Origin: Syntrophomonas sp.
Lineage (GTDB): Bacteria > Bacillota > Syntrophomonadia > Syntrophomonadales > Syntrophomonadaceae
DNA length: 61,904 nucleotides
Assembly: GCA_016841875.1 (NCBI GenBank)
Contig: JAENYG010000021.1
Location: forward strand, 1-61,904
Reading direction: 5' to 3'
Shown here: in pieces, positions 53,501-58,497 of the stretch
How the letters are laid out: each line of letters begins with the position of its first letter
Numbering within the stretch: the first letter of the stretch is position 1
Notes under the pieces: generated by a model
What the model was told of the DNA's origin: nothing
The model's input: only the letters and a program-made list of their open reading frames with translations
Database searches by the model: none
Program-made: the position numbers and the translations under genes

Positions 53501-53825
53501 GTTAGTAAGCCTGGTTTACCTGAATTTTGGTTTCAGGTTGTCGACTTAAGATATTTCTATCTATCAACCAGGCATAAGTCACCTGCCTTTCGTTGAAATT
53601 GATTTAAAACATATGTCTTAATCTATTCTAAACCATTAGTATAGAAAACTATTGCTAAATATTAATTTTTATAAAAATTAAATTTCAACAAGCATTTGAA
53701 TATAAATATTGAGAAACCATCAAATACATCGATGAAAAACATCATCCTGTAAAGTATAAGCAGCTAAGGTTTATGCATTCAAAGCAAATTAAACGACATC
53801 AGATTTCTATACTGTACGGCAAAAA
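53501..53825. other. AT-rich non-coding region
   Basis: These 325 bases upstream of the flavoprotein contain no gene. Short AT-rich inverted repeats (for example ATTTTTATAAAAAT) are the only structure. The flavoprotein promoter presumably lies here, but I could not fix it. Confidence 0.4.
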
Positions 53826-53872
53826 GCGGGATGCACATGCGACAAGCAAGATGTCTTATGTGTATGTCCCGC
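53826..53872 (-). terminator. Terminator after the CoA-transferase-like operon
   Basis: A long stem with GCGGGA/TCCCGC ends and an inner CACAT/ATGTG pairing is followed on the minus strand by TTTTTGCC. It lies 30 bases after the B-subunit stop. Confidence 0.75.
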
Positions 53873-53902
53873 CGATTTTACCTGCTGATTTAGTTCAAAG
53901 GA

Positions 53903-54652
53903 TTAAAATTCATATCCCAGGATATAATTGGGGTCAACTTTCTTAAGTGCTGCCAGTTCTTCTGCAGTAGGAGGATCTAACACTGGCACTTCGGTTTCTG
54001 CAATTTCCCAGCCCGTATTTTCTTTGACCTCTTCGATAGTTGTATACGGGAATATGGAATCTAATTTAAACTCTGTTTCTCCTGGAGCTTTACGAAAGAT
54101 ACACAGTGGTGTAATTAATGTCATCGACTTGTCTTTAGCCGCAGTAGTAGTAGCAAACTTCACATGAGGCACCATAGTTCTCGTATCATGAGCGCACTTC
54201 CATATAATGGTTCTCGGACAGCAGGGTACTATACTTGCGGTCCCGGCTCCACCAGGTCCTCTCAGCGCAGAATGATCATAATCAGGTCCACCCAGTACTG
54301 ACATAGCTATTCTTCCGGTTTTATCTATCTGCAGGCAGGACAGGAATGCTATGTGCCCCTGACCTCGTGCGAATAGATCGAATATATCATCCAATCCGAA
54401 TGTTGCCACACTGCCGATATAGGTGTTTTCAGTTAAAGTGGATGCAGAATAAGGCGGCCGTAACCAATCATGATCCAGACCATCACTAAGAGTAACATAG
54501 TTGAAATCTTTGCCCAGCTCCTTGGCCGCTTTCATTACTACCATCGGGGTTGAGGAGGCGAGGCCGTGGAATACATTGTCGCCTTCCTGGATTTCACGAA
54601 TACATGCTGCAGCAAACATTTCTTCTTTACCATAATCTTTTCCATATTCCAT
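53903..54652 (-). CDS. CoA-transferase-like beta subunit (GctB/IpdB family)
   Basis: The 249-residue protein is a class I CoA-transferase fold subunit. It has GHIAFLSCLQIDKTGRIAMS, ALRGPGGAGTASIVP and ENTGWEI near the C-terminus, matching GctB-type proteins. In glutaconate CoA-transferase the catalytic glutamate lies in a VESG segment. Here the aligned segment is LSDGL (residues 55-59) with no Glu, so ordinary transferase chemistry is doubtful. IpdAB-type hydrolases share this loss. The ribosome site lies in the last codons of the A subunit gene (stop two bases upstream), implying coupling. Confidence 0.82.
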   Translation of the reverse strand: MEYGKDYGKEEMFAAACIREIQEGDNVFHGLASSTPMVVMKAAKELGKDFNYVTLSDGLDHDWLRPPYSASTLTENTYIGSVATFGLDDIFDLFARGQGHIAFLSCLQIDKTGRIAMSVLGGPDYDHSALRGPGGAGTASIVPCCPRTIIWKCAHDTRTMVPHVKFATTTAAKDKSMTLITPLCIFRKAPGETEFKLDSIFPYTTIEEVKENTGWEIAETEVPVLDPPTAEELAALKKVDPNYILGYEF

Positions 54653-54654
54653 TA

Positions 54655-55476
54655 TTACAGCCTCCCTTCTAACATTTTTTCGGCAAATTTAGGTACTTCA
54701 CCATTTTTTACCGCTTTCTGGTATTCTTTATGAAGATCAAAATCTACAGTTAGATATTCAGGATAACAGATTCCATGTTTTGCTCCACCAGGTAATTCTA
54801 CCACCGCTTCAACTAACAGATGAGGAATTGCAGTTAGCTTAGGTTCTTCCTGCATCCGGTAAGTTCCCACGATACGTTCAGTGGTCAGAATAACCTTTCC
54901 AGAAGCTCTGGACATAAGCCAATCCTGATAGGCTGGTCCTAATATACGGGCATTACCATAGATATCAGCTTCCTGTACATGAATTAATGAATAATCAGGC
55001 TTTAAGGATCGTACACATACAACCTTTTCCCCAGTCCATGGACATTCAAAAACTTTGTAGAAATCCGGGTTTTGTTCCAATAAGTCACTGCCCCACATTC
55101 CACATACAGGTTGGAATGGTATACCATATGCTCCCCCACGGAGAGCTGCTATCTGGGCAGTTCAGGAACCTTCCGTCGCGTATGCAGTAGGATTTTCACC
55201 CTGCATGGCTTTCCGCATTCCAGGTGCCAGACCCGCTTCATTCTCTAATCCAAAGAATCCAAAATATGCTCTATCTGCCTGCCCAGTTGCACAGAGAATA
55301 TCTGCGCCAATACCGGGAGCTGCACCACACACTTTGAGATTTTTGGCTCCCTTTAGGGTCAATCCTAAAGAGAACAGGGTCGGGTTTCTATGCATAGCAT
55401 TTCCGCCCACCGCCAAAAGCATCCCGTCTTTAACAAGATCAAGCGCTTTGTCTAGAGTTGTAACTTTTTCTTTCAT
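54655..55476 (-). CDS. CoA-transferase-like alpha subunit with in-frame UGA (possible selenoprotein or nonsense mutation)
   Basis: Two open segments in one frame (55476-55165 and 55161-54655) are separated only by TGA at 55164-55162. Read through, they give 273 residues with residue 105 encoded by UGA, in ATEGS-UGA-TAQIAALRGGAYG. The fold is a class I CoA-transferase A subunit (GMLLAVGGNAMHRNP; GGAYGIPFQP; VEAVVELPGGAKHG). Start ATG 55476 has AAAGGAGGATC. No start codon allows re-initiation until 55098. The downstream half is fully intact, so it is either read as selenocysteine or only recently inactivated. Glu103 two residues before the UGA may match the catalytic Glu of IpdA-type hydrolases (inference). 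Confidence 0.75.
55130..55164 (-). promoter_or_regulatory. SECIS-like hairpin just after an in-frame UGA
   Basis: On the minus strand the UGA (55164-55162) is followed after 15 bases by the stem GCTCTCC/GGGGAGC (7 pairs, one G-U) with a GUG loop at 55139-55137. The loop begins 22 bases after the UGA. Known bacterial SECIS elements need a G among the first loop bases and a UGA-to-loop distance of roughly 16-37 bases, so the geometry fits. GC-rich coding sequence could produce such a stem by chance. Confidence 0.45.
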
Positions 55477-55719: not shown

Positions 55720-56010
55720 ATGCATCTTAACGCGGCCAAACCGCGACTAGCAAAAGGCGGGATTAGCGTGAGAGAAGTAAGATATCTTATGAAAAGTCTA
55801 AGCCACGCAAATATCTTTCCTTGGACGGTTCCAGTGCTGACTGGGGGACAAAATACCGACGGCAACAAGATTGCTTGGTTTGGCTACAAGCTTCATATAG
55901 CTACAGATATTAAATCAGAGTTGCCCATAGCCCTGGAAGTAACTCCAGCTAGTGTTCATGACAGTAATATGGCTCTTCCAATCATTAAGCAGTTGTGCGA
56001 CCACCTTTAT
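55720..56010 (+). pseudogene. DDE transposase fragment (IS4/IS5-like)
   Basis: The frame contains DGNKIAWFGYKLHIATD and SELPIALEVTPASVHDSN, the second-aspartate region of IS4/IS5-group transposases. Only about 95 residues remain. The open frame continues to 56568, but that part is antisense to the DUF35 gene and not transposase-like. No intact ends are seen apart from the TGTCAG hairpin upstream. Confidence 0.75.
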
Positions 56011-56012
56011 AA

Positions 56013-56085
56013 AGAATCCCCACAGGGAACCTGCAGGGATTCTCTTTGTAGCTTTGCGTCCCCGCCTGACAGGTTTACCTTTATC
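56013..56085 (-). promoter_or_regulatory. Partial c-di-GMP-I (GEMM)-like motif with hairpin
   Basis: On the minus strand, GGTAAACC and, 11 bases further, GACGCAAAGCTAC resemble the conserved 5' half of class I c-di-GMP riboswitches. The second conserved half (GCCxGGUUxCCGA-like) is not seen. Instead the hairpin AGAATCCC/GGGATTCT (56013-56043) and a short TTTATAAA follow. It lies just after the DUF35 stop. It could be a truncated riboswitch disrupted by the insertion sequence, or coincidence. Confidence 0.35.
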
Positions 56086-56097
56086 TATGCTCTAAAT

Positions 56098-56526
56098 TTA
56101 ATCCATTTCCCATCCCATGATTGTGCATCCTTTTTCATCGTCTGTAAGCCATACGATATGCACAGGTGCATCATAAGGAACCTTTTCGATTTCGCCATAG
56201 TTGACAAGGCGACCGAAAACGCGCGGTCCTTCGTCCAGGACCACAGAGCATATGGCGATTGGAAGATATTCCTTTATATCCGGATGGAACGAGAATCGCC
56301 CTTCCACGTGGGAATAAATTTTGCCATGGCCCGAAGCCTCTTTCCACTCAACATCAAAGCTGCCGCAGTGCTGGCAGATAATAGCGCCAGGCCAGAAATA
56401 CTTTCCGCAGCTGTTGCAGTATGGCAGAATAAAATTCTGTTCTTCATGAGCAGTTTTATAAAACACATCATTATCAGAGCTGGTTCTGAGGTCATAAGGC
56501 AGATTTACTTTTATTACTTGAGTCAT
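56098..56526 (-). CDS. Zn-ribbon OB-fold (DUF35) protein
   Basis: The 142-residue protein has a rubredoxin-like zinc ribbon (CNSCGKYFWP...CQHCGSFDVEW, about residues 37-60) followed by the OB-fold DUF35 domain (HGKIYSHVEGRFSFHPDIKE; RVFGRLVNYGE). DUF35 proteins form complexes with thiolase-superfamily enzymes, for example acetyl-CoA acyltransferase complexes and the Ltp2-ChsH2 aldolase. The gene begins two bases after the thiolase-like gene, so the two products almost certainly act together. Confidence 0.93.
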   Translation of the reverse strand: MTQVIKVNLPYDLRTSSDNDVFYKTAHEEQNFILPYCNSCGKYFWPGAIICQHCGSFDVEWKEASGHGKIYSHVEGRFSFHPDIKEYLPIAICSVVLDEGPRVFGRLVNYGEIEKVPYDAPVHIVWLTDDEKGCTIMGWEMD

Positions 56527-56528
56527 TC

Positions 56529-57722
56529 TTATTTCCCCCTTTCTAAAATAAGAGTTTCGTTGCTTTGATAGAAACCGCCGTTATCCGAGACGATCATGAA
56601 TTCAGGAAGTTTAGTGCCAGGTATAACACCTAACTGACGATCTCCACAGCGCTGGGACATCTGCATCACGGCCTCGGCTATGGGAGTCATTCCCATATAA
56701 TAACCTTCAGAAAGCAGCCCGCCGCCGGTGTTTACCGGGAATGCCCCGCCGGGTCCTATGTTCTCAACTGTTAAGAAGTCAGCGGCTTTTTTCTTCTCAA
56801 AGAATCCGTAATCACCCAGGGTTGCCTCAACCGTGTAGGTGTAGCAGTCATATATCTGGGCTGCGCCTATATCTTTTGTGCACAGTCCGGCCATCTCAAA
56901 AGCTTGGGCTCCGGCAATAGCGGCGCTGCTCGCGGGATCACCCGGAGTAAGCTGCCAGCCCTTGGCGGTATCATTGGCAGAGCCGTATCCGCGGATCATG
57001 ATAGGCGGATTCTTAAGTTCTCTGGCCCGCTCTGTGGTGGTGATGATAATTGCGCGGCCGCCGTCGGTCGATGCAGTTGCATCCAGGGCACGGAACGGCC
57101 ATGAAAGAAACGGTGTTGCCAAGTAGTCTTCCTTGGTCAAAGGCTTGCTGTAATGAATAGCATTGGGATTCAGGTTGGCCCATTTGCGGTGTGCGACAGC
57201 TATCTCCGCCCATAAATCAGGTCCTGTTCCGTGTTCATGCATGGCACGGCTAGCGAACATGGCATAGTTGGTGAAAGCTGAAATGTTTCCGTAGGCGGCG
57301 TACTCATCATAGGGCTTGCTGCTGAACAGGTCAATTTCATCTGTCCATGTACGGTGACCGGTTCTGCCGCTCTCGGCAAATACGATAAGAACATATTTAC
57401 ATGTTCCGTTTTCGATAGCACCTATTGCTTTATTGATATTGGTCCGGTAGCAGTAAGCTTCCTGGCTTAAGAATTTCGGACGTATGCCAAGACTGTAGGT
57501 TATTACGTTGGCTGTATGATGCATGGCGTCACCTTGCAAAATTGGAAAATCGCGGTATAAAATCAGACCATCTATATCATCCTTTTTTAGTCCCGCATCA
57601 TTAATGGCGTTCATGGTCGCTTCGAGATAAAAACTAGCTGCAGAGCGTCCAAGAACTTTTCCCTGCGGTGTATAACCTACACCTACAATGGAATACTTGT
57701 TTTTTAAATCTGTACGATTCAT
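56529..57722 (-). CDS. Thiolase-superfamily (SCP2/lipid-transfer-like) protein
   Basis: The 397-residue protein has the two-domain thiolase fold (YSIVGVGYTPQGKVLGRS; NPPIMIRGYGS; AFPVNTGGGLLSEGYYMG). Catalytic residues of true thiolases are altered. The GHP histidine is replaced by YY (341-342), and the C-terminal Cys of the CxGGG loop is replaced (VSDNGGF). Cys91 lies near, but not clearly at, the nucleophile position. Tyr294 and Tyr341 are at positions like those reported for the Ltp2 aldolase. It may therefore cleave a C-C bond by retro-aldol chemistry with the DUF35 partner. GGAGG precedes the ATG. Confidence 0.85.
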   Translation of the reverse strand: MNRTDLKNKYSIVGVGYTPQGKVLGRSAASFYLEATMNAINDAGLKKDDIDGLILYRDFPILQGDAMHHTANVITYSLGIRPKFLSQEAYCYRTNINKAIGAIENGTCKYVLIVFAESGRTGHRTWTDEIDLFSSKPYDEYAAYGNISAFTNYAMFASRAMHEHGTGPDLWAEIAVAHRKWANLNPNAIHYSKPLTKEDYLATPFLSWPFRALDATASTDGGRAIIITTTERARELKNPPIMIRGYGSANDTAKGWQLTPGDPASSAAIAGAQAFEMAGLCTKDIGAAQIYDCYTYTVEATLGDYGFFEKKKAADFLTVENIGPGGAFPVNTGGGLLSEGYYMGMTPIAEAVMQMSQRCGDRQLGVIPGTKLPEFMIVSDNGGFYQSNETLILERGK

Positions 57723-57757: not shown

Positions 57758-58497
57758 TTATTGTTTTAACCTTTTGTGAAGTCCAACCTCTTTTTCAGAA
57801 TATCCTAAGGCTAGACCAAGCAACTGGTTAAAACAACTGGGTAAAAAATACCACTGGAATGTTTGTACCTTGGGCATGTAAACGGAATTCCAAATTTAAG
57901 TAACACAAGGGGCACGCCACAACGATAGCTTCCGCTCCTGCAGCGGCTGCACTGCCTTGATTGAGCAATTCACGAACATCGCAAGGGAAACCGCAGGCGT
58001 CAGCATAATATACACCTTTGGCAACTTCCATGGGGTTGGCGCTTTGGGCGAGAGGAACCGATGTTATAAACCCATTGCCATCGACCTTCCCTCCAACCTT
58101 GCTTACCAAAGTGTTAGGACTTTTTACTGGAACCATGGCAGTCGCTAGAACAACTAAATCTGCTTCGATTTCTAAAGGGATACCCATCAGTGTATCTTCT
58201 GCTCTGACGATTAACCGATCATTAACAGGAAATACCTTGCCAACGCGCCCACGGATATAACGTACATGCTCATTTTCCATGACGCCACGGACAAACTCTT
58301 CACCATCTTTGAAGTTTGACCTAATATCCATATACGTGCATAAACGTATGCGTCTGGATGAGCTTTTTTAAGTTCCTTTGCTTGCTTTGCTGTATACATG
58401 CAGCAGACTTTTGAACAATACGGCATGCCTTTGCTTCGATCGCGAGCACCCACACGTTTGATAAAATAACGCCCTTGAATACCTCCCTTTCCTATCT
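57758..58497 (-). pseudogene. Decayed hdrA-hdrB fusion remnant
   Basis: The first fragment (58497-58335) has the HdrA piece VGARDRSKGMPYCSKVCCMY. A frameshift leads to MDIRSNFKDGEEFVRGVMEN and GKVFPVNDRLIVRAE (also HdrA). The same frame then runs into HdrB-like GAEAIVVACPLCYLNLEFR. A second frameshift at about 57845, near a short duplication of CAGTTG, separates the HdrB tail QLLGLALGYSEKE, which ends at 57758. The N-terminal part of HdrA and most of HdrB are missing. Heterodisulfide-reductase-type proteins route electrons in anaerobes, so a complete copy may exist elsewhere. Confidence 0.8.

Follow-up and report, generated by a model that had tools for sequence, protein, structure and literature searches.

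Is a gene that is interrupted by a single TGA broken, or is the stop codon read as an amino acid? In the window (the whole stretch of DNA that we analyzed, 61,904 nucleotides from Syntrophomonas sp.), the gene for the A subunit of a CoA-transferase-like protein has a TGA at codon 105. A preliminary description, made from the DNA letters, had proposed a new selenoprotein while warning that a fresh nonsense mutation was quite possible. We found that the apparently broken gene is almost certainly intact and that the stop is a selenocysteine (Sec) codon. The proposal is supported by the conservation of the UGA, by the interchange of Sec and cysteine among homologues, by a covarying hairpin, and by the presence of the Sec machinery. 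We are highly confident in the prediction, made from sequence, that the A subunit is a selenoprotein and that Sec105 is an active-site residue of a heteromeric enzyme with a CoA-transferase fold.

A gene with one in-frame TGA and a coupled B subunit

The A-subunit gene has an AGGAGG followed by an ATG, 273 sense codons, one TGA, and a TAA at its end, and the B-subunit gene starts 2 nt past this TAA (Table 1). The stability of the terminator-like hairpin that follows was matched by none of 200 shuffles. The otherwise intact frame, the ribosome site, the coupled B subunit, and the terminator, all of which had been described at the outset, were seen again in the sequence. Both subunits contain the CoA_trans domain (PF01144), which is characteristic of the fold of Class I CoA-transferases, and the top PDB sequence match of the B subunit is AibB.

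Table 1. Features at and around the Sec gene, with positions in the window.
Feature	Position	Strand	Details or evidence
CoA-disulfide reductase with a rhodanese-like C-terminal part, 554 aa	51836..53500	-	TIGR03385, 504 bits
Intrinsic terminator-like hairpin 3' of the B subunit	53824..53874	-	fold z -4.86; CCCGCUUUUU tail
B subunit, 249 aa, translationally coupled	53903..54652	-	PF01144, E 6.8e-9; Leu at the catalytic-Glu column
Sec A subunit, CoA-transferase fold	54655..55476	-	273 aa, Sec105; PF01144, E 5.4e-18
Bacterial SECIS-like hairpin in the coding sequence	55130..55146	-	synonymous constraint, pairing, covariation
UGA codon 105, selenocysteine	55162..55164	-	21 genomes with TGA at this column; Cys in 4 homologues
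Decayed HdrA remnant, frameshifted	57828..58465	-	HdrA NCBIfam match on a fragment

The UGA is conserved, and cysteine replaces it in some homologues

With the read-through protein as the query, a search of 151 related genomes gave 14 orthologues that span the UGA (55-89% identity). In each of these, the sole internal stop is a TGA at codon 105. (Our counts of orthologues are from whole-genome searches; a strict-seed scan of contigs with a single protein gave just one orthologue.) A profile search of 398 genomes drawn from across the phylum added three proteins that are 49-54% identical to the query (L065, L066, and L067) and two that are 35-37% identical (L070 and L072), all with TGA in the aligned column, and a second profile added one more carrier (L096). 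The alignment of L067 meets a second stop near the C-terminus. In total, 21 genomes have the TGA, including the window's own, and the protein identity ranges from 89% down to about 30-37%. The stop at codon 105 was TGA every time and never TAA or TAG. The same search also gave about 60 homologues that are free of internal stops.

Four homologues have Cys at the codon-105 column: L068, L069, and L071, which belong to the stop-free set, and L089 from Acetoanaerobium noterae. A swap between Sec and Cys at one column of otherwise alignable proteins is a standard sign of a selenoprotein. Comparing residue 105 across relatives had been suggested as a check on the selenoprotein reading, and it came out in favor of that reading.

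Because the UGA is found at one codon in 21 genomes from many genera, we exclude that the gene is decaying and has only recently acquired a nonsense mutation. A nearby transposase remnant and a decayed HdrA might hint at such a mutation, but the protein downstream of the UGA is also strongly conserved and the hairpin described below has compensatory changes, and we consider this explanation vanishingly improbable. The earlier remark about decayed surroundings holds for the HdrA fragments and the transposase remnant; it does not hold for the Sec gene itself, which is not decayed. A pseudogene or a sequencing error is likewise ruled out by the conservation of the TGA in the 21 genomes. Genome-wide reassignment of UGA was ruled out as well: TGA is the stop codon of 12 of the 34 large open reading frames in the window.

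Another explanation is that the conserved UGA serves as a regulated terminator that gives a 104-residue product, and that read-through is incidental. Sec insertion in bacteria is only partly efficient (30-40% in PMC4513850), which would be compatible with such a role. However, there are stop-free homologues with Cys in the same column, and the protein is conserved to the same degree on both sides of the UGA, with the later part completing the domain. We consider a regulated terminator to be very improbable, and we prefer the reading of codon 105 as Sec.

A covarying hairpin follows the UGA

As the mark of a bacterial SECIS element, we took a hairpin that directly follows the UGA, about 16-37 nt away, and whose loop contains a G. 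The hairpin in the window has a stem of 7 bp (55146-55140 with 55136-55130) and a GUG loop (55139-55137), with 22 nt between the UGA and the loop, so it has the spacing and the loop of a bacterial SECIS. The preliminary description had pointed to this same hairpin.

The significance of the hairpin lies in its conservation and covariation, and not in its energy. For the sequence of the window alone, the folding energy was not below that of shuffles (z = 0.04). Against synonymous shuffles, the hairpin of the window had p = 0.055, and p ranged from 0.017 to 0.59 for the Sec genes overall. An Rfam scan of the window gave no SECIS match at the gathering thresholds. Across 18 orthologues, on the other hand, the codons of the hairpin (111-117) had a same-codon fraction of 0.73, versus a mean of 0.41, and ranked first among 88 six-codon windows. 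The 6-bp core of the stem was paired in 108 of 108 cells (100%) across these orthologues, and two of the stem pairs were changed on both sides (one from U-A to C-G, and the other from C-G to U-A and to G-C). The covariation score was above those of all 500 shuffles and all of the slid controls. In L067, the changes on the two sides of the stem are all synonymous. The distance of the hairpin from the UGA is fixed, and in two distant Sec lineages the hairpins at this offset have unrelated sequences (8 bp in L070; 7 bp in L072 and in L096). We also folded three of the Cys genes (L068, L069, and L071), and none of the three had a hairpin of comparable placement and strength.

The genome encodes the Sec machinery

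The genome that contains the window encodes tRNA-Sec (70 bits, C41:2146-2239), SelB (371 bits), SelD (386 bits), and, adjoining selB, a SelA-like protein of 483 aa (L048:5754-7205) that we identified by eye. All of the components that had been listed as a further check on the selenoprotein reading are present. We propose that SelB and tRNA-Sec would decode the UGA at codon 105 as Sec at the SECIS hairpin within the gene. Among 30 genomes checked, 29 have SelB; the exception (G052) carries the TGA and has a genome completeness of 88%. SelB was also found in genomes that do not have the Sec A gene, so the presence of SelB is necessary but not telling. The selD gene (G000:C6:687-1607, L074) has an in-frame TGA of its own, which makes SelD a selenoprotein as well in this genome.

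The catalytic residue appears to have moved to the A subunit

In an AlphaFold model of the A subunit (pLDDT 94.5, pTM 0.92), residue 105, which lies in the motif EGS-U-TAQIAALR, opens a helix (105-117) right behind a strand (99-102). The closest solved structures to this model are IpdA (6co6_A; Z 34.0, rmsd 2.0 over 268 residues), AibA (Z 32.4), and GctA (Z 31.1). When the sequences were aligned with MAFFT L-INS-i, the Sec column fell on the Glu of MDEGM in IpdA, or Glu105, which is mutated in 6coj (titled E105A); this match comes from the MAFFT sequence alignment, and a phmmer pairwise alignment has a 3-residue gap at the Sec column instead. The same column has Gln in GctA, Gly in AibA, and Asn in the GCT-type paralogues. 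The preliminary description had considered that a Glu two residues before position 105 might be catalytic. This Glu is Glu102, which is three residues before, and we dropped it in favor of residue 105 itself, which is likely to be functional.

During CoA transfer, a Glu in the B subunit forms an anhydride; IpdAB lacks this Glu and does not belong to the CoA-transferases as enzymes (PMC5380842). We compared the Sec column of A with the column of this Glu (Glu54 of GctB) in the partner B subunits. In all 25 pairs whose A subunit has Sec or Cys, the residue in B is Leu or Ile. If A has Asn, His, or Gln, then B usually has the catalytic Glu (11 of 12), and if A has Glu, then B lacks it (5 of 5). 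The Sec pair has neither the Glu54 of true CoA-transferases, which is kept in the GCT paralogues, nor the Glu105 of IpdAB, nor the Cys56 that replaces the B-subunit Glu in AibAB (PMC7756340). In a tree, the Sec and Cys sequences group with one Glu sequence (support 94/91), and there were at least two switches between Sec and Cys. We conclude from these alignments that the catalytic residue has probably been relocated from B to A and changed to Sec or Cys. With the catalytic residue in A as Sec or Cys, the annotation "CoA-transferase" describes the fold and not the reaction, and the Glu-anhydride mechanism of CoA transfer would be ruled out for the Sec enzyme.

Each of the three known relatives resembles the Sec pair in some respects. 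IpdAB, a cholesterol ring-cleaving hydrolase, has its catalytic residue in A at the Sec column and has no B-subunit Glu (PMC5380842), but this residue is Glu rather than Sec or Cys, the identity is about 25%, its genes are in a different operon (steroid degradation), and it has no Sec. The glutaconate CoA-transferase GctAB (1poi) has the same fold and two subunits, and CoA thioester chemistry is expected, but its nucleophile is Glu54 of B. In the 3-methylglutaconyl-CoA decarboxylase AibAB (5mzw), which has the same fold and has also replaced the B-subunit Glu, the Cys is in B rather than A and is non-essential (PMC7756340), and there is no Sec. What the Sec pair adds is a view of the catalytic residue moving between subunits as it changes from Glu to Sec or Cys.

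We also noticed IpdA-like A subunits in anaerobes that have Glu at the catalytic column (L101, L102, L108, L113, and L043), with B subunits that lack the Glu where these were read. It is possible that these are undescribed hydrolases.

The Sec pair is often near genes for disulfide reduction

In many carriers, the cluster has the order sigma-54 regulator, HdrC-HdrB-HdrA-HdrC-HdrB, a GCT-like pair, an MFS transporter, and then the Sec A subunit and its B subunit, which are placed at the end. The GCT-like pair has an intact catalytic Glu and matches 1poi_B (E = 4e-40). In G278 and G230, the Hdr-MFS-Sec order is seen again with another type of CoA-transferase upstream. In the window's genome, the intact Hdr-GCT part is on a separate contig (C34:4480-11807), and all that is left of it next to the Sec pair is the decayed piece of HdrA.

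CoA-disulfide reductase is encoded downstream of B in six genomes, including the window's own, and it precedes the Cys-form A/B in Acetoanaerobium noterae. It is a probable functional partner of the Sec pair. Standalone Sec or Cys pairs (G184, G355, G332, and G419) have neither Hdr nor CoA-disulfide reductase within the region that was read.

Possible reactions of the Sec enzyme

We infer the substrate and the redox role of the Sec enzyme from the neighboring genes only. Our best reading is that it would be a redox-linked enzyme that acts on CoA thioesters via an active-site selenolate. Like IpdAB and glutaconate CoA-transferase, it would bind a CoA thioester, and the A-subunit selenolate at the start of the helix would be the nucleophile on the acyl-CoA. 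Because the neighbors are disulfide-reducing, we suggest that Sec is oxidized during turnover, perhaps to a selenenyl-sulfide or a comparable state, which HdrABC or CoA-disulfide reductase may reduce.

In glycine and D-proline reductases, a Sec selenolate reductively cleaves a C-X bond and is then re-reduced. By analogy, our favored reaction is a glycine-reductase-like reductive cleavage of an alpha-substituted acyl-CoA, which is a guess that we consider possible though tentative. The MFS transporter would import an acid, the GCT-like enzyme would convert it to a CoA ester, and the Sec enzyme would strip the alpha-substituent (for example, a thioether) to leave acetyl-CoA or a simple acyl-CoA. 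Hdr or CoA-disulfide reductase would return the selenol after cleavage. GrdB and PrdB, which belong to unrelated families, offer a working analogy only, of Sec-driven reductive C-X cleavage (in part from PMC13188914). That the CoA-transferase fold has in the Sec pair a third class of catalysis, with Sec-dependent reductive cleavage of acyl-CoA fed by HdrABC or CoA-disulfide reductase, is a somewhat doubtful proposal. If it is true, then syntrophic and other anaerobic Bacillota would have an unrecognized route for alpha-substituted acids, which would consist of uptake of the acid, activation by CoA transfer, and reduction to acetyl-CoA.

In Acetoanaerobium noterae, the cluster (L089:4650-12631) encodes the Cys-form A/B, CoA-disulfide reductase, S-methyl-5-thioribose kinase, an acylating aldehyde dehydrogenase, and a PduL-type phosphotransacylase. 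This suggests anaerobic use of methylthioribose, although as a single case it is a lead only. Given this cluster, 2-(methylthio)acetyl-CoA would fit as one substrate.

Alternatively, the selenolate could be a redox-neutral nucleophile, with an acyl-selenoester in place of the Glu anhydride, and the enzyme would still be a CoA-transferase or an acyl-CoA hydrolase (thioesterase). This would fit the fold, its CoA-binding ancestry, and the move of the catalytic residue to A, and IpdAB, which lacks the B-subunit Glu, shows that the same fold can serve hydrolysis (PMC5380842). However, the Hdr complex and the CoA-disulfide reductase would be left unexplained, and the operon already includes a canonical CoA-transferase of the GCT type, in which the catalytic Glu is present. 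We think that a redox-neutral role is unlikely.

The enzyme could instead act on CoA disulfides or persulfides, with a selenenyl-sulfide between Sec and CoA. Its role, shared with CoA-disulfide reductase/rhodanese and Hdr, would then be in the homeostasis of sulfur or of the redox state and not in the breakdown of carbon compounds. The adjoining CoA-disulfide reductase with its rhodanese-like part, in six genomes and beside the Cys form of Acetoanaerobium, argues for this role, but the MFS transporter, the GCT pair, and the sigma-54 regulator in the operon suggest an imported acid. We view such a homeostatic role as quite unlikely.

Comparison with known selenoproteins

The Sec A subunit shares several features with known prokaryotic selenoprotein families (PMC13188914): the UGA, a SECIS-type hairpin downstream, Sec/Cys pairs, SelABD, and tRNA-Sec. 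The preliminary description named no known selenoprotein of the CoA-transferase type, and among the 119 families of prokaryotic selenoproteins inventoried in 2026, there is no entry for PF01144 or CoA-transferases (PMC13188914). CoA-disulfide reductase and HdrA, which are neighbors here, are both in this inventory of selenoprotein families (PMC13188914). Full-text literature searches, whose coverage of the literature is incomplete, found no CoA-transferase selenoprotein. With the Sec A subunit, the CoA-transferase family would gain its first known selenoprotein. The novelty is a new family of selenoproteins and a new catalytic variant within a fold that is already known, rather than a new kind of system, and it appears to add a selenoprotein family to a fold without listed Sec.

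Under the standard genetic code, the Sec genes look like pseudogenes or like two fragments, so a redox-linked acyl-CoA enzyme would be missed, and it belongs to syntrophic, biogas-relevant bacteria. The operon is a direct and testable lead to an unknown anaerobic pathway in which HdrABC is linked to CoA-ester chemistry.

Other genes near the Sec and Cys forms

Just upstream of the Sec gene, the window encodes an SCPx-type thiolase and a DUF35/ChsH2-like OB-fold protein (56098-57722, minus strand); one further carrier, G020, has the thiolase as well. A transposase-like remnant (55720-56568, plus strand, and flanks) lies between this thiolase pair and the Sec gene. With this remnant beside the decayed HdrA, this is a rearranged site. 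In G420 (L085), the pair with the Cys form L071 adjoins genes for a corrinoid protein and a methyltransferase-like protein.
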